A stretch of 64,000 nucleotides of DNA from Haloplanus sp. GDY1 (GTDB lineage Archaea; Halobacteriota; Halobacteria; Halobacteriales; Haloferacaceae). This document shows positions 43,472 through 63,317 of this stretch, one piece after another. The stretch is taken from contig NZ_CP098514.1 in assembly GCF_023703775.1 (NCBI RefSeq), positions 1,550,001 through 1,614,000 of the forward strand, read 5' to 3'. The notes under the pieces were generated by a model. The model worked only from the letters and a program-made list of their open reading frames with translations, was not told the DNA's origin and searched no databases. The translations under genes were made by a program, and so were the position numbers. The stretch's first letter is position 1; each line of letters starts with the position of its first letter.

Positions 43472-44653
43472 CTACTCTACGTCGACCGTCCCCGTCCGGT
43501 CGGGGTGGCCACGGGCGAATCGATCCCCGGTCGAGCTGTTGAACAGGTAGAGCGTCGGCACTTCCGGAAGGATCGTCGCGTGGTCGCCCTCCGGAATCAC
43601 CTCTTCGACGGGGACGACGGACCGCATCTCTCCCTGCGGCCCTTCGAGGTACATGTGGACCTCGTCACCGAGCGGTTCGTGGAGGTCGACTGTCGTCTGG
43701 ATCCCCGCGGCGTCCGCATCCGGCACCGCCTCGACTTTCCGCGGCCGGAAGCCGAGTTTGACGTCGTCGGCCGCCTTCTCGGGGAGATACTCGCCGACGT
43801 CGAAGGAGAGCGTCGGCCCGTCCTCGACATCGACGACGGCGCGGTCCTCGTCGATGTCGACGACGGAGGCGTCGAGCAGGTTGATCTCCGGCGAGCCGAT
43901 GAACTGGGCGACGAACGTGTTGTTGGGGACCCGGTAGACGTTCTCCGGGTGTCCCACCTGCTCGATCTGCCCGTCGTTCATCACGGCGATCTTGTCCGAC
44001 ATCGTCATCGCCTCCTCCTGGTCGTGGGTGACGTAGACGATGGTGGCGTTGAGCTCCTTGTGGATCCGGCTGAGCTCCTTGCGCATCTCGCGTTTGAGCT
44101 TCGCGTCGAGGTCGCTCATCGGCTCGTCCATCAGGAAGGCGACCGGTTCGCGGACGATGGCACGGCTGATGGCGATGCGCTGCTGTTGCCCGCCGGAGAG
44201 CTCCCCCGGATACTTGTCGAGCAGCCCGTCGATCTGGACGATTTCGGCGGCGGTTTCGACCCGTTCGTTCCGCTGCTCGCGGGACATGCCGGCCAGTTTG
44301 AGCGGGTATTCGATGTTCTCCCGGGCCGTCATGTGGGGGTACAGCGCGATCCGCTGGAACACCATCGCGAGGTCGCGATCCTGGGGGGAGGTGTCGATGG
44401 CCTCCTCGCCCTCCAGGTAGAGGGTACCCTCCGTGGCCGTTTCGAGGCCGGCGATGCAGCGGAGCGTCGTCGTCTTTCCGCACCCACTCGGGCCGACGAG
44501 GGTGACGAAGTCGCCCTCCTTGATGTCGAGGTCGACGCCGTCGACCGCCACCTCGATGCCCGAGGGGATGTCGAACTCCTTGCGGAGGCCCTGGAGTGAG
44601 ATCTGTGTCTTCTCGTCTTGGTACGAACTGCTGTCCGATTCTGTTTTAGCCAT
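43472..44653 (-). CDS. Carbohydrate ABC transporter ATP-binding protein (MalK/UgpC type)
   Basis: A 393-residue ATPase. The Walker A is GPSGCGKTTT, the Q loop VFQRIALYPHMT, the ABC signature LSGGQQQRIAISRAI, the Walker B VAFLMDEPMSDLD, and the switch His THDQEEAMTM. Residues ~255-393 form the OB/TOBE domain found in CUT1 sugar importers (VGEYLPEKAADDVKLGFRP). It is the last gene of the importer operon, starting 2 bases after the second permease stop. The N-terminus has about 17 polar residues before the first strand. Confidence 0.93.
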   Translation of the reverse strand: MAKTESDSSSYQDEKTQISLQGLRKEFDIPSGIEVAVDGVDLDIKEGDFVTLVGPSGCGKTTTLRCIAGLETATEGTLYLEGEEAIDTSPQDRDLAMVFQRIALYPHMTARENIEYPLKLAGMSREQRNERVETAAEIVQIDGLLDKYPGELSGGQQQRIAISRAIVREPVAFLMDEPMSDLDAKLKREMRKELSRIHKELNATIVYVTHDQEEAMTMSDKIAVMNDGQIEQVGHPENVYRVPNNTFVAQFIGSPEINLLDASVVDIDEDRAVVDVEDGPTLSFDVGEYLPEKAADDVKLGFRPRKVEAVPDADAAGIQTTVDLHEPLGDEVHMYLEGPQGEMRSVVPVEEVIPEGDHATILPEVPTLYLFNSSTGDRFARGHPDRTGTVDVE

Positions 44654-44655
44654 TG

Positions 44656-45552
44656 TTAGAGTCCTCCTGTGCGGAAGCCTTCGAGGATGCTTTCCTGCAA
44701 CTTGTACACCAACAGGAACGGCGGGATCGACATCAGCGTCGAGGCCGCCATGATCTGCCCCCAGTAGACGTAGTTCTGCTGGACGAACGTCTGGACTGCG
44801 GGCGGGAGCGTCTGCATCGAACTGTCCGGGAGCAGGATCGTCGCCATCGTGAAGTCGTTCCAACTAACCGCGAACGTGAAGATGGCGACGGCGACCATCC
44901 CGGGTTTCGCCATGGGGATCGCCACGTCCTTGAACGAGTGGAACTGTGACGCCCCGTTCATCCACGCCGCCTCCTCGTACGCGATCGGGACGGTCTGGAA
45001 GAACTTCCACATCATCCACATCCCGAACGGCAACGAGATGGCGATGTGGGCGACGCTGATCCCGATGTAACTGTTCAGCAGTCCGATCTGCCGCCAGATC
45101 TGGTACTGCGGGAACGCCAGCAGGATCGGCGGGAACATGTAACTGAACAGGATGAGCCGGGCGAAGTTCTTCCGGCCGCGGAACTGAACCCGGGTCAGGC
45201 CGTAGCCCGCCAGCGTGGACGCACCCACGGTCGAGACGATGGCGATGATGGCCACGAGAACGCTGTTGAAGTACCAGCGCTCGAAGTTACGGTCCGCGAA
45301 GACGCTGATGTACGCGTCGATCTGGAGTGCGGCGATGACCTGCGTCGGGAACCACGTCGGCGTCTGCACGATGTGGTCGTACGGCTGGATGGAGGCCACC
45401 AGCATCCAGTACATCGGGAACATCATCACGGCACACGTCAGGATGACGACGAGGTACAGCGCCGCCTTCCTGACCTGCAGGCGCTCCTGATAGGGGAGGA
45501 TGCCCCCGACGAACGACTGGATCCGGTTCGAGACCCTGTCGGTGAACACCAT
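44656..45552 (-). CDS. Carbohydrate ABC transporter permease, MalG/UgpE type
   Basis: A 298-residue permease with six membrane helices. The cytoplasmic EAA loop is YEEAAWMNGASQFHSFKDVAIPMAKPG, which docks with the ATPase. The arrangement of a longer extracytoplasmic loop after helix 1 (IQPYDHIVQTPTWFPTQVIAAL) is typical of MalG-like CUT1 subunits. Its start codon overlaps the stop of the first permease by one base (TGATG), implying translational coupling. Confidence 0.92.
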   Translation of the reverse strand: MVFTDRVSNRIQSFVGGILPYQERLQVRKAALYLVVILTCAVMMFPMYWMLVASIQPYDHIVQTPTWFPTQVIAALQIDAYISVFADRNFERWYFNSVLVAIIAIVSTVGASTLAGYGLTRVQFRGRKNFARLILFSYMFPPILLAFPQYQIWRQIGLLNSYIGISVAHIAISLPFGMWMMWKFFQTVPIAYEEAAWMNGASQFHSFKDVAIPMAKPGMVAVAIFTFAVSWNDFTMATILLPDSSMQTLPPAVQTFVQQNYVYWGQIMAASTLMSIPPFLLVYKLQESILEGFRTGGL

Positions 45553-46508
45553 CAGCGACCCACCTCCTCGGCGGGGTTGAAGCCGACGAAGTAGACGATG
45601 GCACCGATGCCGAGGAAGCCGAACAGCGTCCCGGCGATGGCGCCGGCCTGTCCGAGCCGGAAGTTGAGGAACGCCATCTCGAAGATGTAGATCGGAAGCG
45701 TCGTCGTCGCCTGCCCCGGACCACCGGTGGTCATGATGTAGATGATGTCGAACTTGTTGAACATCCAGATGCCACGCAGCAGCAGCGTGAGCAGAATGAC
45801 GCCCTTGATCTGCGGGAACGTGATATCACGGAACTTCCGGAGCGGTCCGGCTCCGTTCATCGTCGCCGCCTCGTAGAACTCGTTGGGGATCGACTGCAGT
45901 CGGGCCAGCACCATGATCGTGATGAAGATCGCGAACTTCCAGGAGTTCGCCACGATCAGGGTCGGGAGCGCGATCCGCCCCTCCGTCAGCCAGCCGATTG
46001 GCTGATTGATGAGCCCGATGTCGATGAGGAAGACGTTGATGATGCCGTAGTTGCCGTTGAGCATCAGCCGGAACACCATCCCGACCACCACGGTCGGAAT
46101 GAGGTAGGGCAGGAAGATCATCGCCCGCGCGAGGACGACGCCCCGGAACTCCCGCGAGAGCATCAGCGCCGTCCCGACGCCCACGACGAGCTGGACCGCG
46201 ACCGAGCCGAAGCCGAAGGACACGCTACGCCAGAACGCGTCCCAGTACGCCGGACTGTTTATGACCTCCACGTAGTTCTGAGTGCCCACCCACGTCCACG
46301 TCGGCGAGAGGGCTCCCGCGTCGTAGAGACTGAGATTGAGTGCCCACAGGATCGGCAGGAACGACGCGAAGAGCATCAGCAGCGTGGCTGGACCGACGGT
46401 CAACCCGATGAGGGCCTTCTTGTCCTCGAAGAGGGTTTCGAGCAGCCCACCCCAGGATTTTTTCGGTATTCTGAACCAGTTATTAACGGTGTCTTGTAGT
46501 GTACTCAT
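45552..46508 (-). CDS. Carbohydrate ABC transporter permease, MalF/UgpA type
   Basis: A 318-residue permease with six to seven membrane helices and an N-terminal cytoplasmic stretch of about 35 residues. The EAA motif is EFYEAATMNGAGPLRKFRDITFPQIKG. LSLYDAGALSPTWTWVGTQNYVEV is the usual MalF/UgpA first periplasmic region. Its mRNA start is preceded by a CACACACACACA tract. Separated from the binding-protein gene by 109 bases that contain a stem-loop. Confidence 0.92.
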   Translation of the reverse strand: MSTLQDTVNNWFRIPKKSWGGLLETLFEDKKALIGLTVGPATLLMLFASFLPILWALNLSLYDAGALSPTWTWVGTQNYVEVINSPAYWDAFWRSVSFGFGSVAVQLVVGVGTALMLSREFRGVVLARAMIFLPYLIPTVVVGMVFRLMLNGNYGIINVFLIDIGLINQPIGWLTEGRIALPTLIVANSWKFAIFITIMVLARLQSIPNEFYEAATMNGAGPLRKFRDITFPQIKGVILLTLLLRGIWMFNKFDIIYIMTTGGPGQATTTLPIYIFEMAFLNFRLGQAGAIAGTLFGFLGIGAIVYFVGFNPAEEVGR

Positions 46509-46512
46509 GCTT

Positions 46513-46524: not shown

Positions 46525-46559
46525 GTTATCGGACACGTGGAGTTGATTGGCTATATGCA

Positions 46560-46617: not shown

Positions 46618-48123
46618 TCACAGGGCGCCTTGCATCTTCGAGACCGCAGCCTGGATGGCGTCGTCGATGGAGGCGTCCTGGTTGACGTACTGGTACGTCA
46701 TGTTCCCGAGGCCGAAGGTCGTGAAGGCCGAGGAGGCCTCGTAGTTCGGCGGGTTGGTCTCCGCGGCGATGGGCTGGCCCTTCGGGATCTGGTCGAGGTA
46801 GAACTGGAGCTGCTCCTCGGTCATGGACTCGTTGACCAGCGGGATGTCCCACATCGGGTGGGACGGGTCGCGACGGGCCTCGCTCAGCGGCGCGTTGTGC
46901 ACCGGCGCCATCTGGTAGAACTCCGTGAGGAGGTCGTCGTCCATCATGATCATCGAGACGTACTCCTTGGCGGCCTCCGTCGCCTGGCCACCGGACATGA
47001 TGCCCCATCCGGAGGGGAACGTGTAGTCGATGGCGTTGTCGGCGTCGGGGTTGTTGGGGTAGGGGCCGGGGGTGACCTCCTTCGCCCAGGAGCGGCCGCG
47101 CCTGTGTGCCTGTATCTGCGGGCGCGCACCGCCGTAGAAGCTCTCGCCGACGTCGCCGTTGGCGAAGGCGTCCGTCGTCTCGGTCCAGCTCCAGTTGGCC
47201 GTGTCCGCGGAGTACTGGTAGTTGGACTTCAGGGTATCGAGGGCCGTCTGGATCTCCTCGGTGTAGTCGGGGAGGGCGACCTCGATCTCCTCGTTACTGT
47301 CGCTCGCCCACTGGGTGGTCCGCGCGCCGTTCGCCCAGATGTGACAGAGCGTCGTGTTGGTCCCGAGGAACGTCGCCCCGGTGGCGATGGCTCCGCCGGC
47401 CATGTCGTCCCGTGCCTCGTCGACGGTCTGCATGAACTCGCCCCACTCATCGTAGGTGGTCGGCATCCCGAGAGGGCTGGAGCCCTCGAAGCCGACCTCG
47501 TTCGCGACGTCGCCGCGGTACCACCGAACGTTCGGGGCACAGAACGCCGGGAACCACCGGTCAGCGCCGTTGTACTTGATCCGGTACTGGCTCGGGAAGT
47601 TGCTCTTGTTCTGGAACTCGTCGACCACGTCGGTGACGTCCGCCAGCAGGTTCTGGGTGACGTACTGACCGACGTTGAACTCCTCGAGGTTGATGACGTC
47701 CGGGGGATCGCCCGCCTGGAGCAGCTGGGCGATGCGTTTGTTGTACCCCGTGTCCCACGCGTAGGTGACGTTGACCGACGTCCCGCTCTGTTCCTCGTAC
47801 TGGCTCGCCGTCTTGTTCCAGAACTCCTTGAACGTCGGCGACTGCTCCATCGAAATGTAGTGGACGGTCTCGCTTGTCGAGGAGCCGCCACCGCTGCTGC
47901 CGCCGTCGTCGTTACCTTCACCGCCGCCGCCACCGCCACCGCCACCGCCGCCGCCGCCACCGCCGCCACCGCCGCCGCCGGAACATCCGGCGAGCATCGT
48001 GGCGCCGCCTGCGGCCGCGGCTGATACCCCTTTCAGGAAGTCCCGACGCTCGGGATCCTCTTCCTCGGGGCTTGGTTCCGGACTGTTCATCGCGTCGTCT
48101 ACCGAATCTGGCTGGTCTGTCAT
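46618..48123 (-). CDS. ABC transporter substrate-binding lipoprotein (family 1, carbohydrate)
   Basis: A 501-residue exported binding protein. An acidic stretch of 26 residues precedes a Tat motif ERRDFLKGVSAAAAGG and a lipobox LAGC (Cys near 47), so it is lipid-anchored outside the cell. A run of 20 glycines follows as a linker, then Ser/Gly. The remaining ~420 residues have the family 1 periplasmic-binding pattern (FKEFWNKTASQYEEQSGTSVNVTY, PDVINLEEFNVGQYV, FPSGWGIMSGGQATEAAKEYV). The ligand is probably a sugar or sugar acid, judging from the CUT1 permeases and nearby catabolic genes. It is the first gene of the importer operon. Confidence 0.92.
   Translation of the reverse strand: MTDQPDSVDDAMNSPEPSPEEEDPERRDFLKGVSAAAAGGATMLAGCSGGGGGGGGGGGGGGGGGGGGEGNDDGGSSGGGSSTSETVHYISMEQSPTFKEFWNKTASQYEEQSGTSVNVTYAWDTGYNKRIAQLLQAGDPPDVINLEEFNVGQYVTQNLLADVTDVVDEFQNKSNFPSQYRIKYNGADRWFPAFCAPNVRWYRGDVANEVGFEGSSPLGMPTTYDEWGEFMQTVDEARDDMAGGAIATGATFLGTNTTLCHIWANGARTTQWASDSNEEIEVALPDYTEEIQTALDTLKSNYQYSADTANWSWTETTDAFANGDVGESFYGGARPQIQAHRRGRSWAKEVTPGPYPNNPDADNAIDYTFPSGWGIMSGGQATEAAKEYVSMIMMDDDLLTEFYQMAPVHNAPLSEARRDPSHPMWDIPLVNESMTEEQLQFYLDQIPKGQPIAAETNPPNYEASSAFTTFGLGNMTYQYVNQDASIDDAIQAAVSKMQGAL
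47920..47979 (-). repeat. GGC/GGT trinucleotide run coding 20 consecutive glycines
   Basis: Twenty glycine codons of only two types (GGC and GGT) immediately after the lipobox Cys-Ser. The plus strand shows ACC/GCC units. The tract is a microsatellite likely to change length by slippage without shifting frame. Confidence 0.9.
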
Positions 48124-48284: not shown

Positions 48285-48701
48285 TCACTTCTCGAGGTCC
48301 GCCGGGTTCCCGTCCTCGTCGACCGTGTACGTGTCGCCGTTGAGCACCGCGGGCGAGTGGACGAACATCGCGCGGAACGGCCCGTCGCGGTCCTCGGGGT
48401 TCCGCGGGTAGTGGGGCACCCCCGGCGGGATGAACACGAGGTGGTCGTCGGCGTGACAGGGGACGGGGTCGCCGTCGACGACGATCTCGCCCTCGCCGTC
48501 GAGTCCGTAGAACGTCTCCCCGCTGTACCGGTGGACGTGCGGCGTGACCGACTCCCCCGGATCGACGGTGATGATCCCCTGATCGAACATCTGGGTGTCG
48601 CCCTGATCGACGTTCATCAGGAACTGGATGTCGATGCCCAGACGGTCCCGGACCGCCGGTTCGTCGACGTCGTAGAGGTGATACGGCTGTGAGTGATCCA
48701 T
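48285..48701 (-). CDS. Cupin-domain protein
   Basis: A 138-residue single-domain cupin. Motif 1 is VTPHVHRYSGETFYGLDGEGEIVV with the HxH...E metal ligands, motif 2 is VFIPPGVPHYPRNP with the fourth His. Small cupins of this kind are often sugar isomerases, lyases or dioxygenases, or non-enzymatic sensors. In this setting a sugar or sugar-acid isomerase is plausible. The minus-strand element AGTTATTAAC (48733-48742) is its TATA box, about 36 bases from the start. Confidence 0.85.
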   Translation of the reverse strand: MDHSQPYHLYDVDEPAVRDRLGIDIQFLMNVDQGDTQMFDQGIITVDPGESVTPHVHRYSGETFYGLDGEGEIVVDGDPVPCHADDHLVFIPPGVPHYPRNPEDRDGPFRAMFVHSPAVLNGDTYTVDEDGNPADLEK

Positions 48702-48792: not shown

Positions 48793-50031
48793 TCACTGGA
48801 GTCGGAGCCAGCAGAGACACACCGTGCTGACGAGGAAAAACGGAAGGAGGGCGGCGAACGCGAGTTCGTAGTCGAACGCCTGGGCGACCGACCCGATGTA
48901 CGTCGGCCCCAGGCTTCCGAGGAAGATGAGCAGCGTCCGGGCACCCCCGTAGTCGCCGCCCATGCTCGCGTCGGGAAAGAGGCCCATGAGATACGCGTTG
49001 ACGACGGGCGGGAAGCCGGTGATCCCCACCGCGAGCAGCCCCAGGCCGGCCACGAGCGGGACGGTCGACTGCGCGACGAACAGGACGAGCAGCCCCGCCA
49101 TCCCGAGCAGCGCCGCGCCGATCGCGACCGTGAGGTGTCGCATTCGGTCCCCGAGATAGCCCGCCACGATCCGCACGACCGCGCCCACCAGGAAGAACCC
49201 GATGAAGGCGTTGTTCGCGAACGTCTGCGAGTAGCCCTTTCCGAACCGGAGAAACGCCGGGAGAAAGCCCAGGATCCCCTGAAAGATGAAGCTGTACATG
49301 ACGTAGGCCACGATGGCCCAGCGGACCAGGGGGTTCCCCAGGATCCGCGCGACGGTCTCCCGGAGGTTCAGTTCGCACGCGCCGAGGTCGAGGTCGTAGT
49401 CGCCCCGGTGTCCGACGTGCAGCGTCGCGGCGACGAGGACGAGGACGGCGACGACCGGCGCGAACGAGACGTGCCACGTCGTCGGCACCGTGATACCGGC
49501 GAAGCGCCACGTCGCCACCGCGAGGACGAGGGTCGCGAGCGCGCCGGAGAGCGACGTCCCCACGTCGATGGCGGACGTGTAGAGGCCGAACGCCTGCCCC
49601 CGCCGCGCCTCGAACAGGTCCGCGAGCTGTGCGTACGAGGACGGGGTGAACAGCCCCGCACCGAGACCCATCACCACGAGTCCGAACACGAACCCGACGT
49701 ACGTCGTGACCCCCGTGAGGATCACGAAGCCGGTCGACAGGATCGCTATCGAGCCCACCAGCACCGTCTTGTACGACAGCTGATCAGACAGCAGCCCCCC
49801 GGGATACTGCGTGATGGCGATGGACGCCCACATGACGGTGAGCGCGATCCCCGCCTCCGAGGACGTGATGCCCAGCGTCTCGATGATGGCGGGCAGGAGC
49901 GGCCCGAAGATGTTTCGCCCGACGAAGGCGGCGACCGTTCCCGCGAGGATCAACAGCAGGATCCGCCCGGGATAGCCCGTCAGGAGCGGTTCGGTGGTGG
50001 CGTCCGCGTTCGTGGCCGAGTGCTCTGTCAT
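48793..50031 (-). CDS. Major facilitator superfamily transporter
   Basis: A 412-residue protein with twelve predicted helices. The N-terminal half has FVGRNIFGPLLPAIIETLGITSSEAGIALTVMWASIAITQYPGGLLSDQLSYKTVLVGS, where GGLLSDQLSYK is the MFS loop 2-3 motif. A matching weaker motif (VAGYLGDRMRHLT) lies between helices 8 and 9. It may be a second uptake route for the compound handled by this cluster, or an exporter of by-products. The substrate cannot be told. Confidence 0.9.
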   Translation of the reverse strand: MTEHSATNADATTEPLLTGYPGRILLLILAGTVAAFVGRNIFGPLLPAIIETLGITSSEAGIALTVMWASIAITQYPGGLLSDQLSYKTVLVGSIAILSTGFVILTGVTTYVGFVFGLVVMGLGAGLFTPSSYAQLADLFEARRGQAFGLYTSAIDVGTSLSGALATLVLAVATWRFAGITVPTTWHVSFAPVVAVLVLVAATLHVGHRGDYDLDLGACELNLRETVARILGNPLVRWAIVAYVMYSFIFQGILGFLPAFLRFGKGYSQTFANNAFIGFFLVGAVVRIVAGYLGDRMRHLTVAIGAALLGMAGLLVLFVAQSTVPLVAGLGLLAVGITGFPPVVNAYLMGLFPDASMGGDYGGARTLLIFLGSLGPTYIGSVAQAFDYELAFAALLPFFLVSTVCLCWLRLQ

Positions 50032-50109: not shown

Positions 50110-51732
50110 TTAAGCGTCCTCGGGGCCCCACATGTCTTCGGTCGCCGGGGCGTGCTCCTGGAGTTCGGTCTCGTCACCGCCCGTCCGCGGGAGGATGGCG
50201 TCGGTGCGCAGCACCGACACCGTGAACTCGGTCGCGGTGTCGAGGGCGAGCCGTTTGCTGCCGATGGGCTCGATGATGCCGGTCTCGTAGGCGGACGTGA
50301 GGCCGCCGGTGTCGACGTCGAGCGCGGCGTCCCGGTCGCCGGCCCCGTGTTCGCTGCGTAGACGCGGGAGCACGTCGAGCGGGTCGTACCCCGAGTTCCG
50401 GATCAACTGCGCGACCGGCGCCTCCAGCGCCTCGGCGAACGCCTCGACCGCCAGCCGTTCCTTCCCGGAGGTCTCGGACGCCAACTCCCCGACACCGCGG
50501 GCCGCGACGAGTTCCGCGGCCCCGCCGCCGGGGATGGCGCGCGGGTCGTCGGAGGCCGATGCGAGCGTCCCGATGCCCTGCTTGAGGATGCGCTTGGTCA
50601 GGTCGCCGCCGGTCGCCGTCCCCGCGTTGACGAGAACCGAGACGAGGTCGGTGTCCGGGCAGTCGGCGAACAGCACGCCCTTGATCGACCCCGATCCGAG
50701 GTCCGTCACCGTCACCCGACCCGAGTGGCCGAGCGTCGCGTCCGCGACACCGTCCGGCGTGACGACGTCGCCGCCGACCGCCGCGTGGACGCGGTCGAAC
50801 TTCTCGTCTTTGAGCTCGTGGAAGACGAGGATCCCGGCGTCCGCGAGGGTGGCGAGGGGGCCGCCGTCGAGGTGGCCCGAACAGACGACCACGTCGGCGC
50901 CGCTGTCACACACCGCCCGGAGGGCGTCCTCGTAGTAGCCGTCGCGGGATTCGCGGACGGCGTCCGCGGCCTCCGGACTGGAGACGTCGACGCCGTCGAC
51001 CGAGAGGAGGTCGTCCGTGTCCGGGCGGGTGACCGGGTCGGACAGCATGAGGACGTCCGCGTCGACGACGTCCCGCGGCATCCCGTCGTGGGGGACGTCG
51101 CTCCGCAGGATGGCGCCCTGAACCACCCGCGACTGGTCGATGCCGAGGCGGATGTCCTGCTCGAAATGCACCTTGTCGAGCGAGACGTCGGGGGCCAGCA
51201 CGCCGGCGGCGTCGAGCGAGACCTGCCGGAGGTGGTCGATCTGCGAGTCGACGAACCGACCGTTGATCGCGGTGGTGACGAGCGCGTATCGCTCCCGGTC
51301 GGTCAGTTCCAGCGGCACCGCGACGTCGTCGAGGGCCTCGACGGCGGCCGCCGCCGCCCGTTCGTACCCTCGCGCGATCGTGACCGGCGAGACGCCGTCC
51401 TCGACGAGGGTCTCGGCCTCGTCGATCAGCGCCGTGGCGAGCAGGACCGCGAACGTCGAGCCGTCGGGCAGTCGGTCGGCGTCGCCACACGCGTCGACGA
51501 GCATCCCCCCGACCGGGTCGCGGACGTCGAGTCGGTGGAGAATGTCGGACCCCTGGTTCGAGACGAAGCCGTCGCCGTGCGGGTCGATCATCAGTTTGTC
51601 CCGCCCGTGGGGCCCGTAGGTGGCGCGAACGATGTCGCCGAGCGCCCGGACGGCGTCGAACGCCGCCTGCTGGAAGTCGTCGCTCTCGAGACGTTCCGCG
51701 GACGAAATCCGACTCACCTCTCGTTCACTCAT
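50110..51732 (-). CDS. Divergent thermosome-like chaperonin (predicted ATPase-deficient)
   Basis: A 540-residue group II chaperonin homologue aligned over its whole length with the thermosome subunit at 21308-22969. The ATP site is altered: TITNDG is VSNQG (Asp replaced by Gln60), GDGTTT is PDGSTF (Asp90 kept), and the third catalytic Asp (GIQDAL) aligns without gaps to Gln385 (LKQGIG). PKGMDK is PHGRDK. The flexible GGM tail is missing; it ends EDMWGPEDA. PGGGAAELVAARG and EPIGSKRLALDTATEF are kept, so the fold is probably intact. The ATG at 51732 has a TATA box 29 bases upstream. Possible roles are a non-cycling ring member or a dedicated partner of a cluster enzyme. Confidence 0.85.
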   Translation of the reverse strand: MSEREVSRISSAERLESDDFQQAAFDAVRALGDIVRATYGPHGRDKLMIDPHGDGFVSNQGSDILHRLDVRDPVGGMLVDACGDADRLPDGSTFAVLLATALIDEAETLVEDGVSPVTIARGYERAAAAAVEALDDVAVPLELTDRERYALVTTAINGRFVDSQIDHLRQVSLDAAGVLAPDVSLDKVHFEQDIRLGIDQSRVVQGAILRSDVPHDGMPRDVVDADVLMLSDPVTRPDTDDLLSVDGVDVSSPEAADAVRESRDGYYEDALRAVCDSGADVVVCSGHLDGGPLATLADAGILVFHELKDEKFDRVHAAVGGDVVTPDGVADATLGHSGRVTVTDLGSGSIKGVLFADCPDTDLVSVLVNAGTATGGDLTKRILKQGIGTLASASDDPRAIPGGGAAELVAARGVGELASETSGKERLAVEAFAEALEAPVAQLIRNSGYDPLDVLPRLRSEHGAGDRDAALDVDTGGLTSAYETGIIEPIGSKRLALDTATEFTVSVLRTDAILPRTGGDETELQEHAPATEDMWGPEDA

Positions 51733-55353: not shown

Positions 55354-55776
55354 ATGATCGGATCATCCCACCACTACGGCGTTACCGTATCGGACATGGA
55401 CGAAGCGCTCGGCTTCTACCGAGACACCCTCGGCATGGAGGAGGTCGACGCCTTCTCCTTCGCCAGCGAGGAGTTCAGCAAGTTCGTCGGCGTCGAGGAC
55501 GTCGACGTCGACCTCGTATTCCTCGACGCGAACGGCTGTGCCGTCGAACTGCTGGAGTACAACAACCCCCCGGGCGGCGACGCGAACGAGGGCGTCGCCA
55601 ACAACGACGTCGGTGCCGCACACTTCTGTCTCGAAGTCGACGACATCGACGCCGTGTACGAGGACCTCTCCGACGAGGTCGAGTTCGTCAACCCGCCGCA
55701 GACGCTCTCGAACGGCGCCGAAGTCGCCTACATGTACGACCCCGACGGCAACGTCGTCGAACTGCTCTCGGAGTAA
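55354..55776 (+). CDS. VOC family protein (glyoxalase-like)
   Basis: A 140-residue vicinal-oxygen-chelate protein with two beta-alpha-beta-beta-beta modules. HHYGVTVSDMDEALGFYRDTLGMEEVD begins module one with the first metal His; ELLEYNNPPGG, AHFCLEVDDIDAVYEDL and MYDPDGNVVELLSE supply the second module and terminal Glu. The substrate is unknown: lyase, isomerase and dioxygenase activities all occur in the superfamily. Cotranscribed with the aldehyde dehydrogenase and followed by an intrinsic-type terminator. Confidence 0.87.
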   Translation: MIGSSHHYGVTVSDMDEALGFYRDTLGMEEVDAFSFASEEFSKFVGVEDVDVDLVFLDANGCAVELLEYNNPPGGDANEGVANNDVGAAHFCLEVDDIDAVYEDLSDEVEFVNPPQTLSNGAEVAYMYDPDGNVVELLSE

Positions 55777-55894: not shown

Positions 55895-55916
55895 CGAGAT
55901 GCTGACAGTGGAACCG

Positions 55917-56342
55917 ATGTTCGAGCAAGTGCACCACGTAGCCTACACCGTGGACGACCTCGACTCGTACCGGACGTTCTTCGGGGACGTCCTGGAGATG
56001 GAGAAGGTCGACTACCGGGAGATGCCCGAGGACGGGTACAAGGCGGCGGTCTACGACGTCGGCGGCGTCTACATCGAGGTTCAAGAGCCCATGGGCGAGG
56101 ACACCGACACCAAAGCCGAGATGGAGGAGTTCCTCGAGGAACAGGGCAACGGCCTCAACCACGTCGCCTACGAGGTCGACGACATCGCGGCCGCCGTCGA
56201 ACGCCTCGAGACGGAGAAGGGGATCGAGCGCGACTGGGACGAGCCCATCGTGGCGCCGACGTTCCCGGACTGCAAGCTGATCGACATGGAGCCCGACACC
56301 AGCCGCGGCATCTACCTGCAGCTCGTCGAGGAGCTGGACTGA
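55917..56342 (+). CDS. VOC family protein (methylmalonyl-CoA epimerase-like)
   Basis: A 141-residue protein starting MFEQVHHVAYTVDDLDSYRTFFGD, with GLNHVAYEVDDIAAAVERL opening the second module and RGIYLQLVEE giving the final metal Glu. The His, Glu and second-module His positions match methylmalonyl-CoA epimerases, but specificity cannot be inferred and an epimerase or isomerase of a sugar acid is equally possible. Its stop is 6 bases before the SAF-domain oxidoreductase gene, indicating an operon. An upstream ATG at 55899 would add six residues. Confidence 0.85.
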   Translation: MFEQVHHVAYTVDDLDSYRTFFGDVLEMEKVDYREMPEDGYKAAVYDVGGVYIEVQEPMGEDTDTKAEMEEFLEEQGNGLNHVAYEVDDIAAAVERLETEKGIERDWDEPIVAPTFPDCKLIDMEPDTSRGIYLQLVEELD

Positions 56343-56348: not shown

Positions 56349-57692
56349 ATGCTCAACATACCGCCACAGCTTCGGGATCGAGAGGAGCCGATCGACGTCG
56401 GCGTCATCGGCTCCGGTCTGTTCGGGACGAAACTCGTCGACCAGATCGAGCGCGTCACCGGCATGCGGACGGCCGCCATCGCCGACATCGACCTCGACAA
56501 GGCCGCCCAGGCGTACGCCGAGTCGGGCGTCTCGACCGACGGCGTGGTCGAGACGACCGACCTCGGGGAGCTGAACGCGGCCATCGCCGACGGGCAACAC
56601 GCCGTGATCGCCGACGGGCCAACCCTCGCCCGCAGCGACGTCGAGGTCGTCGTCGAGGCGACCGGCATCCCCGAGGTCGGTGCCCGGCACGCCTACACGG
56701 CCATCATGGAGGAGACACACGTCGTGATGGTGAACGTCGAGGCCGACACCGTGGTGGGTCCGACGCTCGCCGACCTCGCGGACAAGGCCGGCGTCACCTA
56801 CTCGATGGCGTACGGCGACCAGCCGTCGCTCCTCGCCGAACTGTACGACTGGGCCCAGACGGTCGGCCTCGACGTCGTCGCCGCCGGCAAGGGGAACCCG
56901 TTCATCGAGGAGTACCGGTACGGCACCCCGGACGACGTCTTCGACCGGTGGGGCTTCGACGAGGAGTTCGTCGAGGAACACGGGCTCAACCCGTGGATGT
57001 ACAACTCCTTCCTCGACGGGACGAAGGTGGCCGTCGAGATGTGCGCCGTCGCCAACGCGACCGGGCTCACGCCCGACGTCCAGGGGATGCACCTCCCGGA
57101 CGCCTCCATCGAGGAGATTCCCCAGAAGCTCCGCCCGAAGGAGGACGGCGGCGTCCTGAACGAGGCCGGCGTCGTCGACACCGTCAGTTCGCTCCGCCCC
57201 GACGGCACTGAAATCGACGACAACATCAGCTTCGGCGTGTTCATCGTGACGACGACGCCGAACGAGCGGGTCCAGGAGTACCTCGAACAGAGCAGCGGCT
57301 CCGGGATGTACGTGGCCAACGACGGGAAGTATCAGGTGTTCCACCGGCCCTACCACCTCCCCGGCACGGAGACGTCCGTGAGCGTCGCCAACGCCGCCAT
57401 CCGGAACGAACCGACGGGCGTGCCGCGCGAGCGCGTCGCCGAGGTGGTCGGCGGCGCCAAGCGGACGCTGGAACCGGGCGAGGAACTCGACGGCGGCGGC
57501 GGCTACACCGTCTACGGCCTGCTCGAGGAGGCCGAGACGGCGGAGGAGCAGAACCACGTGCCCTTCGAACTCCTCGACGGCGCCGAGGTGGTCTCGGAGA
57601 TCGCACAGGACGAGATCGTCACCTACGACGACGTCGAACTCGACGAGGACTCGTTCATCTACCGGCTCCGGCGCCTGCAGGACGCCGCCTGA
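56349..57692 (+). CDS. Homoserine-dehydrogenase-like oxidoreductase with C-terminal SAF domain (COG4091)
   Basis: A 447-residue protein. PIDVGVIGSGLFGTKLVDQI (about 15-35) is an NAD(P) Rossmann loop, and VVVEATGIPEVGARHAYTAI a homoserine-dehydrogenase-like motif. VDTVSSLRPDGTEIDDNISFGVFIV and FHRPYHLPGTETSVSVANAA continue the catalytic domain. Residues ~360-447 form a SAF-like domain (KRTLEPGEELDGGGGYTVYG, EIVTYDDVEL). The family includes, as I recall, the Brucella DXP-reductoisomerase-like enzyme DRL, which couples redox to a carbon-skeleton rearrangement. Haloarchaea make isoprenoids from mevalonate, so DXP is not the expected substrate. An oxidative isomerisation of a branched sugar acid is a fitting but unproven role. 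Confidence 0.85.
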   Translation: MLNIPPQLRDREEPIDVGVIGSGLFGTKLVDQIERVTGMRTAAIADIDLDKAAQAYAESGVSTDGVVETTDLGELNAAIADGQHAVIADGPTLARSDVEVVVEATGIPEVGARHAYTAIMEETHVVMVNVEADTVVGPTLADLADKAGVTYSMAYGDQPSLLAELYDWAQTVGLDVVAAGKGNPFIEEYRYGTPDDVFDRWGFDEEFVEEHGLNPWMYNSFLDGTKVAVEMCAVANATGLTPDVQGMHLPDASIEEIPQKLRPKEDGGVLNEAGVVDTVSSLRPDGTEIDDNISFGVFIVTTTPNERVQEYLEQSSGSGMYVANDGKYQVFHRPYHLPGTETSVSVANAAIRNEPTGVPRERVAEVVGGAKRTLEPGEELDGGGGYTVYGLLEEAETAEEQNHVPFELLDGAEVVSEIAQDEIVTYDDVELDEDSFIYRLRRLQDAA

Positions 57693-57746: not shown

Positions 57747-58589
57747 TCACTTCTTCGATTCCGCACGGTCGACGAGGGCTCGAAGCTGATCGACGACGGG
57801 CTTGTCGACCGCCGCGCCATCGATCACCGTGACGCCCTCGTCCGTCGCCTCGAAGGCGTCGATGACCCGCTTCGCGCGGGCCACCTCCTCGGCCGAGGGC
57901 GAGAAGACGTCGTTGATCACCGCCGCCTGTTCGACCGTCATCGCCGCCTTCCCGTCGAACCCGACGGCCTTGGCGGCGCGTGCCTCCGCGCGCGTCCGCT
58001 CCTCGTCGTGAACCGCGGCGAGGTTGGGCTTGTCGACGGCGTGGACCCCCGCGCCGTTGGCCGCCATCGACAGCAGGAACCGCGGCACCGAGAGGTCGGT
58101 CTCGTCGAGGATCGACATCCCCATGTTCATCTGGAAGTCGATGGCCGCGAACATGAGGCCGTGAATCCGCTCGCTCACCCGGGCGATCCCCTGGGCGTCG
58201 AACATCGCGCTCGGCTTCTCGATCAGGGGGTGGAGGTCGACGTCGACGCCGTACTCGTCCAACACGTCGTCGACGAGGCGGACCTCGCTCGCGTCCCGCA
58301 CGTCGGGGAGGAGCAGGACGTCCGGCAGGGCGTCGGCGGTCGCGATCGTCCGGACGTCGTCGATCCCCCGGTCGGTGTCGACGCCGTTGACGCGCACGGC
58401 GAGTCGCTGTGACGTCTCGCCGAGGTCGGCGAGCGTCTCCAGCGTCCACTCGCGGGCCGCGGCCTTCGCGGCAGGGCTGACGGTGTCTTCGAGGTCGACG
58501 ATCACGACGTCGGCGGGCGAGCCGATCGCCTCGACGACGCCCTCGTCGTCGGACCCGGGAACGAACAGATAACTGCGGTCGGCGGACAT
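57747..58589 (-). CDS. HpcH/HpaI aldolase/citrate lyase family protein (CitE-like)
   Basis: A 280-residue TIM-barrel lyase. SYLFVPGSDDEGVVEAIGSPADVVIVDLEDTVSPAAK is the CitE N-terminus with the metal-binding and CoA-contacting residues. LPDVRDASEVRLVDDVL and PLIEKPSAMFDAQGIA carry the catalytic Arg/Glu region. MFAAIDFQMNMGM replaces the usual GxxDLxxDLG, with the second Asp changed to Asn. Family activities are cleavage of malyl-CoA, citramalyl-CoA or hydroxy acids. It may split a C-C bond late in this pathway. GTTTACTATC on the minus strand is its TATA box. Confidence 0.87.
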   Translation of the reverse strand: MSADRSYLFVPGSDDEGVVEAIGSPADVVIVDLEDTVSPAAKAAAREWTLETLADLGETSQRLAVRVNGVDTDRGIDDVRTIATADALPDVLLLPDVRDASEVRLVDDVLDEYGVDVDLHPLIEKPSAMFDAQGIARVSERIHGLMFAAIDFQMNMGMSILDETDLSVPRFLLSMAANGAGVHAVDKPNLAAVHDEERTRAEARAAKAVGFDGKAAMTVEQAAVINDVFSPSAEEVARAKRVIDAFEATDEGVTVIDGAAVDKPVVDQLRALVDRAESKK

Positions 58590-58647: not shown

Positions 58648-59745
58648 TCACTCGGGGACGAGCGACGCCCGCGCCACGTCGCGCTCGTCGGAGCGGCGGA
58701 TGGCGGCGTCGACGTCGTCGAGGGCGAACCCCTCGCCGACCAGTTCGTCGAACGGGTAGTCGTCGGCCGTCTCGCGCAGGAAGTCGAGGGCCGTTCGGAG
58801 ATACCAGGGGTCGTAGCGCATCACCGACACCACGTTGATCGACTTGCGGGTCATCGCCCCGGGATCGAACTCGGTCGTGTGGCCGGGGATGACGTTCCCC
58901 ATCTCGAGGTAGCGCCCGCCGGGGCGGAGGAGTTCGATCCCCTCGGCGAACGCCTCGGGGACGCCCGCGACTTCGACGCCCACGTCCGCACCCTGCCCGT
59001 CGGTCAGTTCGCGGACCCGGTCGGCGCGCTCCTCGACCGAGTCGTACGTCCGGAGGTCGACGGTGTGGTCCGCGCCGAAGCGTTCGGCCAGGTCGAGGCG
59101 GTCCGCGACCCCGTCGATCACGATCGTCTCGGCCCCGCGTTCGGTGGCCGCCGCGACGGCGTTGAGGCCGAGGCCGCCGGCGCCCTGCACGACGACCGTA
59201 TCGCCCCACCCGACCTCGGCCTTGTCGAGGCCGCCGAGCACCTGCGCGAGCGCGCAGTTCGCGCTCGCGGCCGGCCCCTCGGGGACGTCGGGCGACACCT
59301 TGTAGAAGAACTGTTCGGGGTAGACGTAGTAGTGGGAGGCGAACGTGCCGTGAAAGTGCGGGTGCGTGTCGGCCGACTGCGACCAGTAGTCGTAGGCGTG
59401 CTCGCAGAGGCGGAACTCGCCGGCCCCACAGCGGGGACACGCCTCACAGATCGCGAAGTACGTGGGGACGATCAGGTCCCCCTCCTCGACGGGGCGGCCC
59501 GCGTTGTCGGTCGTGACGTTCTCGCCGAGGTCGACGATGCGACAGAGCCCCTCGTGACCCAGCGGCCCGTCGTTGATGTGGGGGTGACCGCCCCGCCACA
59601 TGTGCAGTTCCGAGCCACAGACGTTGGCGCGGACGATCTCGGTCACGATGGCGTCCGGGTCCGGCGACGGGACGTCGAACTCCTTCAGTTCGACGTTCTT
59701 CGTCCCGTTCAGACAGGCGATCCGGCCGCGAGTGTGCGAACTCAT
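58648..59745 (-). CDS. Zinc-dependent alcohol/polyol dehydrogenase (second copy)
   Basis: A 365-residue MDR dehydrogenase. VCGSELHMWRGGHP and LGHEGLCRIVDLG have catalytic zinc ligands, CEACPRCGAGEFRLCEH the structural-zinc cysteines, and VVVQGAGGLGLNAVAAATERGAETIVIDG the NAD-binding loop with an acidic residue favouring NAD. An aromatic insert (YDYWSQSADTHPHFHG) follows the structural zinc site. It is only distantly similar to the enzyme at 51801-52892. Expected substrate is a polyol, sugar or hydroxy acid. Minus-strand TAGATTTACC is the TATA box. Confidence 0.9.
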   Translation of the reverse strand: MSSHTRGRIACLNGTKNVELKEFDVPSPDPDAIVTEIVRANVCGSELHMWRGGHPHINDGPLGHEGLCRIVDLGENVTTDNAGRPVEEGDLIVPTYFAICEACPRCGAGEFRLCEHAYDYWSQSADTHPHFHGTFASHYYVYPEQFFYKVSPDVPEGPAASANCALAQVLGGLDKAEVGWGDTVVVQGAGGLGLNAVAAATERGAETIVIDGVADRLDLAERFGADHTVDLRTYDSVEERADRVRELTDGQGADVGVEVAGVPEAFAEGIELLRPGGRYLEMGNVIPGHTTEFDPGAMTRKSINVVSVMRYDPWYLRTALDFLRETADDYPFDELVGEGFALDDVDAAIRRSDERDVARASLVPE

Positions 59746-59795: not shown

Positions 59796-60557
59796 TCAGT
59801 CGGCGTCCACGAGGTCCAGGGGCGTCTCGATCCGGACGTCCGGATCGACGGCGTCGGCGCGGTCGGCGCGGCAGTGCAGCGACACGAGGATGCTGTCGAT
59901 CCCCGCGCGGTTGGCGCCCTCGACGTCGGCGCCGGGCGTGTCCCCGACCATCGCGACGGGGCGGGTCGAGACGCGGTCGAGCGCCAGGTCGAACAGCGGG
60001 GCGTTTGGCTTCCCCACGACCGTCGCCTCCGTCCCGCTCGCGGCCTCGATGGCCCGGAGGATCGCCCCCGTCCCCGGAGCGACGCCGTCGCCGGACGGGT
60101 AGGACGTGTCGCCGCTCGTGGCGACCAGCGGCAGGTCCCGCTCGTAGACGAGCCGGGTCGCCGTCTCGATGTCGTCGTACGTGACGGTGGGGTCGAAGCC
60201 GACGACGACGGCGTCGGCGTCGCGCTCCCGGTCGGCGATCCCCCGCCGACCCAGTTCCGTTCGGAAGCCGTCCATCCCGACGAGGTAGACGCTCTCGACG
60301 CCGCGGTCGGCGAGGTACGTCGCCGTCGCCGAGGCCGCGCTCGTGACCTGGTCCACCTGCGTGTCGATGCCGAACCCGGTCAGCTTCTCGGCGAACTCCT
60401 CGCGGGTGTGCTGGGAGTTGTTGGTGACGAACTGGATCTCCTTGCCGGCGTCACGGAGTCGGCGGAGCGTCTCGACGGCGCCCGTGACCGGCTCGTCGCC
60501 GACGAAGACGACGCCGTCGAGGTCGAAGAGAAACGCCCCGTACTCGTCTGCGAGCAT
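59796..60557 (-). CDS. HAD-IIA family phosphatase (NagD/phosphoglycolate phosphatase-like)
   Basis: A 253-residue HAD-superfamily hydrolase. FLFDLDGVVFVGDEPV is motif I with the nucleophile and acid Asp, VTNNSQ motif II, GKPNAPLF the motif III Lys, and MVGDTPGADVEGANRAGID motif IV. The cap region is type C2A (SYPSGDGVAPGTGAIL), as in NagD and phosphoglycolate phosphatases. It is divergent from the RLP gene across 116 bases. It could remove phosphate from a product of the kinase/RLP branch, such as a phosphorylated C2 or C4 fragment. Confidence 0.9.
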   Translation of the reverse strand: MLADEYGAFLFDLDGVVFVGDEPVTGAVETLRRLRDAGKEIQFVTNNSQHTREEFAEKLTGFGIDTQVDQVTSAASATATYLADRGVESVYLVGMDGFRTELGRRGIADRERDADAVVVGFDPTVTYDDIETATRLVYERDLPLVATSGDTSYPSGDGVAPGTGAILRAIEAASGTEATVVGKPNAPLFDLALDRVSTRPVAMVGDTPGADVEGANRAGIDSILVSLHCRADRADAVDPDVRIETPLDLVDAD

Positions 60558-60650: not shown

Positions 60651-60673
60651 CCGACGCCCCGCGTGTCGTCACC

Positions 60674-61933
60674 ATGACGGACCGATTCACCGCGACGTAC
60701 AGGATCGAGACACCGGCGTCGGTCCGGGAGGCGGCGGACGCGATGGCCGGCGAGCAGTCGGCGAGCACGTTCGTCGACGTTCCGGGGGAGAGCGAGGAGT
60801 TACAGCGGCGCCACGGCGCCGACGTCGTCGACGTGACCGAACTGGGGACGACAGCCGAGCCGACGCTGCCGGGCGTCGATCCGGGGTCCGAGGAGGCGTC
60901 CGAGTACACCCGGGCGGAGGTGCGGATCGCGTACCCCATCGAGAACGTCGGCGTCTCCGTTCCGCAGCTGCGGACGACGGTCGCCGGCAACGTCTTCGAG
61001 ATGCAGCCGCTGTCCGGGATCCGGCTGCTCGACGTCGACGTCCCGGACGTCTACGGGGCGGAGTGCCCGACGCCGCAGTTCGGAGTCGAGGGGACGCGCG
61101 AACTGATCGGGGTTCACGACCGGCCGATCGTGGGGACGATCATCAAGCCGAGCGTGGGGCTGTCGCCGGACGAGACGGCGTCGCTCGTCGAGACGCTGGT
61201 CGAGGCGGGCGTCGACTTCATCAAGGACGACGAACTCATCGCCGACCCGCCGTACTCCCGGTTCGAGGACCGCGTCGAGGCGGTCATGTCGGTCATCGAC
61301 GACCACGCCGAGGAGACGGGCAAGCGGGTCATGTACGCGTTCAACGTCACCGGGAGCGTCGAGGAGATGCGCCGGCGACACGACGTCGTCGCGGAGGCGG
61401 GCGGCACCTGCGTCATGGTGAGTCTCAACAGCGTCGGCCTCGCGGGCGTGCTGGCGTTGCGCCGGCACAGCGACCTGGCCATCCACGGCCACCGGAACGG
61501 GTGGGGCGCGCTCTCCCGGTGTCCCCAGCTCGGCTTCGAGTACACGGCCTACCAGAAGCTCTGGCGGCTGGCCGGCGTCGACCACCTCCACGTCAACGGC
61601 ATCCGGAACAAGTTCACCGAATCCGACGAGTCGGTCGTCGCCTCCGCGCGGGCGGTGCAGCGACCGATCCCGGGCGACGACGGCATCCTCCCGGTGTTCT
61701 CGTCCGGGCAGTGGGCGGATCAGGCCCACGACACCTACGCGGCGCTCGGCAACGTCGACCTGATGTATCTGGCCGGGGGCGGGATCATGGGCCATCCGGA
61801 CGGCCCGGCCGGCGGCGTCGACGCGCTGAAACAGGGATGGGAGGCGGCCATGGCCGGCGTGCCGCTCGCGGAGTACGCGGAGGACCACGAGGCGCTCCGC
61901 CGCTCGATGGAGGCGTTCGGCACCGATGAGTGA
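60674..61933 (+). CDS. RuBisCO-like protein (form IV), OiaX/OiaT-like
   Basis: A 419-residue RuBisCO large-chain homologue. Active-site residues kept (spinach numbering in brackets): GTIIKPSVGLS with Lys158 [175]; DFIKDDEL with Lys184, Asp186 and Glu187 [carbamylated 201, 203, 204]; IHGHRNG with His273-Arg274 [294-295]; DHLHVNGIRNKF with His306 [327] and loop-6 Lys313 [334]; SSGQ near 345 [379-381]; LAGGGIMGHPDGPAGG with the phosphate loop; AGNVF with Asn106 [123]. Lys177 of true RuBisCO is Ser160 and the loop-6 sequence is not GTVVGKLEG, so CO2 fixation is unlikely. Metal-dependent enolisation should remain. The kinase gene overlaps its end by 8 bases. Bacterial homologues decarboxylate or cleave 3-oxo-isoapionate 4-phosphate. 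Confidence 0.92.
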   Translation: MTDRFTATYRIETPASVREAADAMAGEQSASTFVDVPGESEELQRRHGADVVDVTELGTTAEPTLPGVDPGSEEASEYTRAEVRIAYPIENVGVSVPQLRTTVAGNVFEMQPLSGIRLLDVDVPDVYGAECPTPQFGVEGTRELIGVHDRPIVGTIIKPSVGLSPDETASLVETLVEAGVDFIKDDELIADPPYSRFEDRVEAVMSVIDDHAEETGKRVMYAFNVTGSVEEMRRRHDVVAEAGGTCVMVSLNSVGLAGVLALRRHSDLAIHGHRNGWGALSRCPQLGFEYTAYQKLWRLAGVDHLHVNGIRNKFTESDESVVASARAVQRPIPGDDGILPVFSSGQWADQAHDTYAALGNVDLMYLAGGGIMGHPDGPAGGVDALKQGWEAAMAGVPLAEYAEDHEALRRSMEAFGTDE

Positions 61934-63317
61934 CGACGACCTCCTCCTGGCGTACTACGGGGACGACCTGACGGGATCGACCGACGCGATGGAGGCGCTG
62001 GGCCTGGGCGGCGTTCGCACGGCGCTGTTTCTCGAACCGCCGACCGAGTCGGAGCTGACGGGGCGGTTCGCGGATCTGGACGCGGTCGGCGTCGCCGGCC
62101 GCAGTCGGTCGATGTCCCCCGACGAGATGGACGAGGTACTCCCCGAACACTTCGAGCGGCTGCTCGACCTCGATCCGGCCTTCGTCCAGTACAAGGTCTG
62201 CTCGACGTTCGACTCCGCGCCCGACGTCGGCAGCATCGGCCACGCGATCGACGTCGGGCAGGACGTGTTCGACTCCCCGTTCGTCCCCGTGGTGGTCGGC
62301 GTCCCCGCGCTGGAGCGGTACGTCGTCTTCGGACACCTGTTCGCGACGGTCGGCGACCGGACCTACCGGATCGACCGCCATCCGACGATGAGCGACCACC
62401 CGGTGACGCCCATGACCGAGAGCGACCTCTGTCGACACCTGGGCGAGCAGACCGACCGGCCGACGGATCGCTTCGACGTGCTCGCCCTGGAGGGGGACGG
62501 CGTCGACGCCGAGTTCGCCCGCCTCCTGGCGTCGGATCCGGAGATCGTCCTGTTCGACACGCTCGACGGATCGCACCTGCGGGAGGCCGGGCGTCTGCTG
62601 TGGTCGCGGGCGCTCGAACTCGCGGACGGCCCGCTCTTCGCGGTCGGCTCCTCCGGACTCGGATACGCGCTGACGGCGTACTGGGCCGATACGGGGGCGG
62701 TGTCGCCGCCCGAGTCGGTGCCGACGGCCGACCCCGTCGACCGCATCGCCGTCATGTCCGGGAGCGCGTCGCCGGAGACGGCCGCGCAGATCGACGCCGC
62801 CCTCGAACGCGACGACTTCACGGGGATCAGGCTCGACACCCCGTCGCTCGTGGTCCCGGCGGAGGCGGCCGCGGAGCGCGACCGGGTCGTCGAGGCGGCG
62901 ACCGAGGCGATCGGCGCCGGCGACAGCGTCGTCATGTACGCCGCCCGGGGACCGGACGACCCGGCCATCGAGCGGACCCGGGCGGCCGCCGAGGCGGCGG
63001 GGGTCGACGACGTCGGCGGGCGCCTCGGCCGGGAGCAGGGGACGATCCTCGAGACCGTCCTCAGGGAGACCGACCTCTCGCGGGTCTGCATCGCCGGCGG
63101 CGACACCAGCGGCTACGTCGCGCCGGCGCTCGACGTCTACGCCCTCGAGTTCCACAGCCCCATCGCTCCCGGGTGTCCGCTCTGTCTCGCGAGTTCGTCC
63201 GACGAGGAGTTCGACCGACTGGAGCTAGCGCTCAAGGGTGGACAGACGGGCGGTGAGCGATACTTCGAGCGCGTGCGCCGGGGATCGTCGGAGTACTGGC
63301 CCGATAGCAGCGATTGA
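61926..63317 (+). CDS. DUF1537 four-carbon acid sugar kinase family (OiaK-like)
   Basis: A 463-residue sugar-acid kinase. The N-terminal domain begins LLLAYYGDDLTGSTDAMEALG (acid-sugar-binding Asp residues 13-14) and has VQYKVCSTFDSAPDVGSIGHAI. The C-terminal nucleotide domain has AVMSGSASPETAAQI, CIAGGDTSGYVA and the terminal LALKGGQTGGERYF. Characterised members phosphorylate tetronates (DtnK, LtnK, OtnK) or 3-oxo-isoapionate (OiaK). Here PdxA2 and OtnC-type partners of tetronate kinases are absent while the RLP gene overlaps, favouring an OiaK-like role. The stop lies inside a long inverted repeat. Confidence 0.92.
   Translation: MSDDDLLLAYYGDDLTGSTDAMEALGLGGVRTALFLEPPTESELTGRFADLDAVGVAGRSRSMSPDEMDEVLPEHFERLLDLDPAFVQYKVCSTFDSAPDVGSIGHAIDVGQDVFDSPFVPVVVGVPALERYVVFGHLFATVGDRTYRIDRHPTMSDHPVTPMTESDLCRHLGEQTDRPTDRFDVLALEGDGVDAEFARLLASDPEIVLFDTLDGSHLREAGRLLWSRALELADGPLFAVGSSGLGYALTAYWADTGAVSPPESVPTADPVDRIAVMSGSASPETAAQIDAALERDDFTGIRLDTPSLVVPAEAAAERDRVVEAATEAIGAGDSVVMYAARGPDDPAIERTRAAAEAAGVDDVGGRLGREQGTILETVLRETDLSRVCIAGGDTSGYVAPALDVYALEFHSPIAPGCPLCLASSSDEEFDRLELALKGGQTGGERYFERVRRGSSEYWPDSSD

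Follow-up and report, generated by a model that had tools for sequence, protein, structure and literature searches.

The best reading we can offer of a 20-kb stretch of the Haloplanus sp. GDY1 genome is a haloarchaeal variant of the catabolism of branched sugar acids that depends on a RuBisCO-like protein (RLP), in which a DXR-II-like enzyme takes the place of the oxidoisomerase and a degenerate chaperonin is dedicated to the cluster; we hold this reading tentatively, at slightly less than an even chance. The stretch occupies positions 43472-63317 of the window, which is the whole 64,000-nucleotide piece of DNA that was analyzed (G000:C1:1550001-1614000, in a genome of 3.44 Mb), and encodes an RLP, an adjacent kinase, a relative of DXR-II that we refer to as DRL and a divergent chaperonin. 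Its gene content, its co-inheritance, the pattern of DRL or ApnO among relatives, the RLP active site, the lost anchor and Asp residues and the absence of RpiB are computed from sequence, and from them we infer every reaction, the substrate and the role of the chaperonin. The genomes compared most closely are those of the host (G000), a sister species (G001), a further species of the genus (G007) and two other family members, G029 and G052 (Halegenticoccus tardaugens).

The RLP-kinase pair and the DXR-II relative

The window RLP retains the RuBisCO-type metal and catalytic residues (the Lys of KPSVG, KDDE, HxHR and the loop-6 Lys), and K172, KDDE 198-201, H285, H287, R288, K327 and S357 are invariant in all haloarchaeal members and in the two bacterial sequences compared. 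The open reading frame of the kinase, the sole PF07005 protein in the genome, overlaps that of the RLP by 8 bases. A contig profile scan returned 80 loci with RLP, among the matches listed, that are nearly all bacterial and in which haloarchaea are under-sampled; the RLP-kinase pair is together in 75 of them, with ApnO (41 loci), ApnL (18), an Asp/Glu racemase-like protein (18) and a particular SDR (14) as neighbors. Bacterial relatives of the window RLP adjoin ApnL, ApsD-like and ApnO genes. The cluster resembles the bacterial D-apiose pathway (ApsD, ApnL, ApnO, OiaK and OiaX or OiaT; PMC6302742) in its adjacent RLP and kinase and in the intact catalytic residues of the RLP. In contrast to that pathway, the host genome lacks ApnO and RpiB, no ApnL or ApsD-like genes were found in the loci, the RLP and kinase score below the family cut-offs, and a DRL/DLO protein and a dedicated chaperonin are present instead. 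3-Oxo-isoapionate 4-phosphate is decarboxylated by the RLP of Agrobacterium radiobacter K84; the Xanthobacter autotrophicus RLP carries out a transcarboxylation and hydrolysis of this compound (PMC6302742). The branched-sugar theme of the earlier note on this DNA is supported as a link to 3-oxo-isoapionate-type chemistry, the families that best match the RLP and kinase being OiaX (NF042437) and OiaK (NF042436). The host is a haloarchaeon that probably belongs to the Haloferacaceae, and its relatives carry a type III rubisco.

Other features of RLP-kinase loci were observed in passing. The Asp/Glu racemase-like protein accompanies the pair at L118, L120, L126, L130, L135 and L052, mostly without ApnO, and is possibly another front end. 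In several haloarchaea the gene that immediately precedes the RLP encodes a conserved protein (about 267 residues) made up of two similar halves and with a weak match to DUF1805 (L048:15116-15919 and L049:15122-15928). The RLP-adjacent kinase of Halomarina sp. PSR21 (L076:11216-12585) is in two same-strand pieces, possibly owing to a frameshift or an assembly error.

The protein that had been labeled a SAF-domain oxidoreductase is better described as a relative of DXR-II. It matches PF21135 (DRL_cat) with 177.6 bits, PF03447, and PF08666 at its cut-off, giving it the DRL_cat, NAD-binding and SAF domains of the DXR-II/DLO superfamily, and it aligns over its full length, all domains included, with Brucella DXR-II (PDB 3UPL/3UPY; E = 1e-71). 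The equivalents of K191, E174, R320 and Y322 are kept, and F178 is replaced by Trp. In DXR-II, residues K191, K193 and T229 anchor the phosphonate of the inhibitor (PMC3847144). The window protein keeps K191 and has N for K193 and V for T229, and archaeal relatives are also without both; given the loss of two of the three anchors, we rejected its identification as DXR-II. It looks like an uncharacterized DLO-type relative of that enzyme. DLO1 and DLO2 are uncharacterized sister families of DXR-II, four tested members of which cannot replace DXR (PMC3847144); like them, DRL is a DXR-II relative outside the verified DXR-II enzymes, and it differs from them in coming from an archaeon and in its link to an RLP cluster. 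Its context is sugar-acid catabolism, unlike the isoprenoid synthesis of the Brucella homolog. The loss of the anchors would fit an unphosphorylated substrate, such as a step ahead of the kinase should have. An AlphaFold model of DRL (three sequences; mean pLDDT 48.7) is reliable in the Rossmann part only and was not used.

DXR-II reductively rearranges a carbon skeleton, and ApnO reportedly moves a hydroxymethyl group. ApnO has been named an oxidoisomerase (PMC11747546). A PF16896 protein adjoins a true ApnL in Microvirga. On the basis of this position, and of the bacterial D-apiose pathway reported by Carter et al. 2018, we take the PF16896 protein beside these RLPs to be ApnO. Its absence from the region, as remarked in the earlier note, is borne out genome-wide: PF16896 has 0 matches in the whole genomes of the host, G001, G007 and G029, and ApnO was not found in any of the whole-searched genomes in which DRL is linked to RLP. 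The 14 haloarchaeal genomes with RLP divide into six with DRL only (G000, G001, G007, G029, G331, G343), seven with PF16896 only (G027, G050, G130, G230, G282, G285, G390) and one with both (G052); none has neither. Among 391 genomes of the class, ten of which have RLP, the DRL subgroup occurs in five and coincides with RLP in four (hypergeometric P = 1e-6, uncorrected for relatedness).

The DRL and ApnO types interleave on the RLP and kinase trees, a single clade of DRL types being rejected for both (p-AU 3e-4 and 4e-10), and no column of the RLP alignment separates the two types beyond random splits. The simplest reading is that the kinase-RLP pair is conserved and that the enzyme acting upstream of it can be exchanged. 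We propose that the oxidoisomerase step is supplied by DRL, which is the strongest candidate for the step that ApnO would otherwise perform. In Halegenticoccus tardaugens (G052), the locus of the DRL module is missing the RLP. It retains a truncated kinase, which shares 88-95% identity with the G029 kinase, and after it a HAD gene with 47% identity to the one in the window. An intact RLP-kinase-ApnO set is found on another contig of this genome, and the two arrangements imply that the DRL and ApnO routes feed the same intermediate. The truncated kinase (L210:4714-5266, on G052:C7) is fused to a dehydrogenase fragment and adjoins the DRL-chaperonin module.

The plasmid-borne RLP-kinase-ApnO clusters of Halalkalicoccus, Haloterrigena, Haloarcula and Natrinema encode RLPs 63-67% and kinases about 50-60% identical to those of the window. 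They differ in having ApnO and no DRL, in their TRAP or GntP transport (plasmid examples) and in that no chaperonin was found in them. We found no description of these clusters, and no haloarchaeal apiose pathway, in the literature searched.

Gene content and co-inheritance of the cluster

Pfam and NCBIfam scans confirm all of the genes listed for the 43472-63317 span, so that the inventory of the earlier note stands, and codon-position GC favors the reading frames of the span. Some of the open reading frames are over-extended at the start; those of the ATPase, SDR, aldehyde dehydrogenase (ALDH), chaperonin and RLP probably begin inside the listed limits. The genes are as follows.

43472..44653, minus strand: ABC importer ATPase (PF00005; start set by homology; orthologs in the clusters of G001, G007 and G029, 62-88% identical, and of G052, 75%)
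44656..45552, minus: ABC permease 1 (PF00528; block of ATPase, permease 1, permease 2 and solute-binding protein kept in G001, G007, G029 and G052)
45552..46508, minus: ABC permease 2 (PF00528; part of the same block)
46618..48123, minus: lipobox solute-binding protein (PF01547; orthologs 48-84% in four clusters)
48285..48701, minus: cupin (PF07883; kept in G001 only; membership unsure)
48793..50031, minus: MFS transporter (PF07690; kept in G001 only; membership unsure)
50110..51732, minus: divergent group II chaperonin with replacements at two of the catalytic Asp residues (PF00118, Cpn60/TCP1)
51801..52892, minus: zinc MDR dehydrogenase 1, MDR1 (PF08240 and PF00107; 55-89% in haloarchaeal loci with the window-type DRL subgroup, except CG52)
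52941..53711, minus: SDR dehydrogenase (PF13561; start by homology; paired with MDR1 in G001, G029 and G052)
53844..55298, plus: ALDH, AldA type (NF007497, 547 bits, cut-off 500)
55354..55776, plus: VOC protein 1, VOC1 (PF00903; 74-89% in G001, G007, G029 and G052)
55899..56342, plus: VOC protein 2, VOC2 (PF13669; in G001, G029 and G052)
56349..57692, plus: SAF-domain oxidoreductase of DRL/DLO type, the candidate oxidoisomerase (PF21135, 177.6 bits)
57747..58589, minus: HpcH/HpaI (CitE-like) lyase (PF03328; 57% in G052; also adjoins DRL in G375, 45%)
58648..59745, minus: zinc MDR dehydrogenase 2, MDR2 (PF00107; 60-90% in G001, G029, Natronosalvus and Halomarina)
59796..60557, minus: HAD-IIA phosphatase (TIGR01460, over cut-off; G001 87%, G052 47%)
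60674..61933, plus: RLP, OiaX/OiaT-like group (NF042437, 509.8 bits, cut-off 700; start by homology)
61926..63317, plus: four-carbon acid sugar kinase, OiaK-like (NF042436, 495.8 bits, cut-off 700)

The ATPase, two permeases and solute-binding protein form a complete ABC importer; comparison of the binding protein with the PDB gave weak or fusion-tag matches only and no hint of a ligand. The whole gene order from transporter to kinase is kept in G001 at 83-96% identity. The importer block and the chaperonin are kept in G007, G029 and G052 in rearranged order, as for the most part are the MDR1-SDR and ALDH-VOC1-VOC2-DRL blocks, the latter being present in both G029 and G052. The kinase and RLP share a neighborhood with DRL in G000, G001, G007 and G029; in Natronosalvus, Natronococcus and Halomarina they are plasmid-borne and lie at most about 20 kb from DRL. 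The earlier note had posited a single pathway, to be refuted if the two halves of the region occur independently. The cluster is co-inherited, whole in G001 and with most blocks in G007, G029 and G052, and within this family the halves are not independent: G007 and G029 hold both, rearranged, and G052 keeps a remnant of the kinase. Conservation of the HAD, CitE-like lyase and MDR2 genes is patchy and that of the cupin and MFS genes is restricted to G001; because of this distribution, not all five may be members of the cluster.

The 20-kb limits given for the region describe a real span but are too narrow, since sugar-acid genes run about 17 kb past the right edge of the window (G000:C1:1614000-1632000, L104). 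Pfam matches there identify a second HpcH/HpaI lyase, a 6PGDH-type dehydrogenase, two UxaA-type dehydratases with SAF, an ADP-forming acyl-CoA synthetase, a LUD-domain iron-sulfur protein and a 3-hydroxyacyl-CoA dehydrogenase (3HCDH); an aldolase, an aldehyde dehydrogenase and a probable IclR regulator are recognized by sequence similarity or from their first lines only.

The same pattern of conservation bears on the view that the region is a loose catabolic island, in which chance and transfer have brought together sugar-acid genes that are unrelated and make up no single pathway. That view draws on the sister-only cupin and MFS genes, the patchy HAD, CitE-like and MDR2 genes and the continuation of sugar-acid genes beyond the window, but it is very improbable given that the same blocks recur, rearranged, in G007, G029 and G052, together with a chaperonin found nowhere else.

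The cluster chaperonin

Chaperonin matches occur in 107 of 118 relatives and are nearly all thermosomes at 30-34% identity. Orthologs of the window chaperonin, at 47-84% identity, are confined to five of the 118 (G000, G001, G007, G029 and G052), in each of which they lie 4-6 kb from DRL. The chaperonin had been set aside as out of theme; we rejected a chance neighborhood given that its orthologs are found beside DRL only. In all five orthologs the Asp of NDG is replaced by Q or S and the Asp of VEDSL by Q, and the Asp of GDGT is kept (PDGST in the window), so that two of the three catalytic Asp residues of an active group II chaperonin are replaced. The window protein shares the Cpn60/TCP1 fold family with the haloarchaeal thermosome. 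It differs from the thermosome in its low identity (about 33%), its replaced NDG and VEDSL Asp residues, the lack of a GGM tail and its confinement to DRL clusters. Given the two replaced residues, we predict that it is probably a subunit, either altered or without hydrolytic activity, whose inheritance follows that of the DRL module. Perhaps it assembles or holds an enzyme of the cluster, or joins the host thermosome. A second thermosome subunit, of canonical type, is encoded in the window at 21308-22969 on the plus strand and is 33% identical to the chaperonin at 50110-51732.

Proposed pathway and alternatives

In the pathway we envisage, the ABC importer would take up a sugar or sugar acid, and the SDR, MDR and ALDH enzymes would oxidize it to a branched aldonate. 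DRL would then oxidize and rearrange the aldonate by hydroxymethyl migration to a 3-oxo-isoapionate-type β-keto acid, which is ApnO's job elsewhere; the kinase would phosphorylate this product, and the metal-dependent RLP would either decarboxylate the phosphorylated compound or transfer its carboxylate and hydrolyze it. The degenerate group II chaperonin would serve this cluster in particular and may assemble or hold one of the enzymes. We consider a single haloarchaeal catabolic cluster that breaks down a branched, plant-type C5 substrate of the apiose/apionate type, either a sugar or a sugar acid, about as probable as not, leaning slightly toward doubt. Of the earlier note's reading of one pathway, probably for a branched sugar such as apiose or for a tetritol or pentitol, the co-inherited cluster and the 3-oxo-isoapionate-type chemistry are upheld, and apiose itself is unproven.

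The exit from the bacterial pathway is reported to run through erythrulose and erythrose phosphates. Neither RpiB, the isomerase of that exit, nor a true transketolase was found in the host genome, the latter giving weak matches only (24-29 bits). These absences favor an exit as 3-phosphoglycerate and glycolate over one via erythrose 4-phosphate, although they are only suggestive. In Haloterrigena KLK7 the RLP is adjoined by genes for pyruvate kinase and enolase, as it is by at least one of the two in several bacteria, a hint of a 3-phosphoglycerate product; we rejected these neighbors as proof of that product since, among haloarchaea, a single cluster has them. Such genes, singly or together, were recorded beside RLP-kinase pairs at L109, L113, L114, L156, L160 and L107.

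Several observations weigh against a single pathway with DRL in the oxidoisomerase position. We know of no activity assay of any DLO enzyme, and the DRL and ApnO samples are few and phylogenetically related. The RLP and kinase were rejected as OiaX and OiaK given scores (509.8 and 495.8 bits) below the equivalog cut-off of 700. These cut-offs are narrow, since bacterial relatives, including those of the Microvirga cluster with its bona fide ApnL (899 bits, cut-off 750), score about 430-580: eight bacterial RLP relatives, some from ApnO clusters, reach 453-509 against NF042437, and the kinase of a bacterial ApnL cluster reaches 575 against NF042436. To the same side belong G375, two bacterial loci with both DRL and ApnO, and the failure to find ApnL or ApsD-like genes in the haloarchaeal DRL loci, each of which also speaks for one of the alternatives below.

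The alternative that survives best, which we nevertheless consider unlikely, is that two neighboring pathways are present: a DRL module (ABC importer, MDR1, SDR, ALDH, VOC1, VOC2, DRL, CitE-like lyase, 3HCDH and chaperonin) for one substrate, in which DRL would catalyze some other reaction of the reductoisomerase or dehydrogenase type, and a module of RLP and kinase for a second substrate, the linkage being frequent and not necessary. In G375 a DRL operon with CitE-like, 3HCDH and MDR1-like genes is found in a genome that has neither RLP nor kinase, so DRL can act without them and is not strictly dependent on RLP, and the DRL module of G052 likewise lacks an intact RLP or kinase at its locus. 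A DRL-family gene stands together with ApnO, RLP and kinase in each of two bacterial loci (Oceanospirillaceae, L128:2796-4136; Rhodovulum, L136:14896-16236), so that DRL and ApnO are not strictly exclusive, although these DRLs are only about 40% identical to that of the window; given these loci, we rejected a strict replacement of ApnO by DRL everywhere. Two separate pathways fit poorly with the linkage of RLP-kinase to DRL in seven of nine haloarchaeal DRL loci, with the kinase remnant in G052 and with the lack of ApnO in the whole-searched genomes that have RLP-linked DRL.

It is more doubtful still that DRL feeds the kinase and RLP from another aldonate, such as a linear pentonate, a stereoisomer of apionate or a 2-C-methyl tetronate, which would make this a tetritol or pentitol cluster and not one for apiose. 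The interchange of neighbors beside the bacterial pair (ApnO; an SDR with pyruvate kinase; the Asp/Glu racemase-like protein) suggests several front ends, the co-occurrence of DRL and ApnO in the two bacterial loci is as would be seen for different inputs, and ApnL and ApsD were not found in haloarchaeal DRL loci. However, no RLP residue difference tracks the front end, and L119, among the close bacterial RLPs, is located in an ApnO/ApnL/ApsD cluster.

Returning to DRL in the position of ApnO, a stronger claim is that the DLO enzyme is a second, non-homologous oxidoisomerase for branched sugar acids that replaced ApnO more than once in haloarchaea and is served by its own inherited, ATPase-degenerate chaperonin; this is possible, although we are inclined to doubt it. 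If the reading is correct, some of the uncharacterized DXR-II-like oxidoreductases would be assigned a function for the first time, and it would extend the RLP-dependent catabolism of branched sugar acids to the archaea with a different key enzyme. It would also provide a case of a chaperonin that is reserved for one catabolic cluster and, judging from its replaced residues, apparently without hydrolytic activity.

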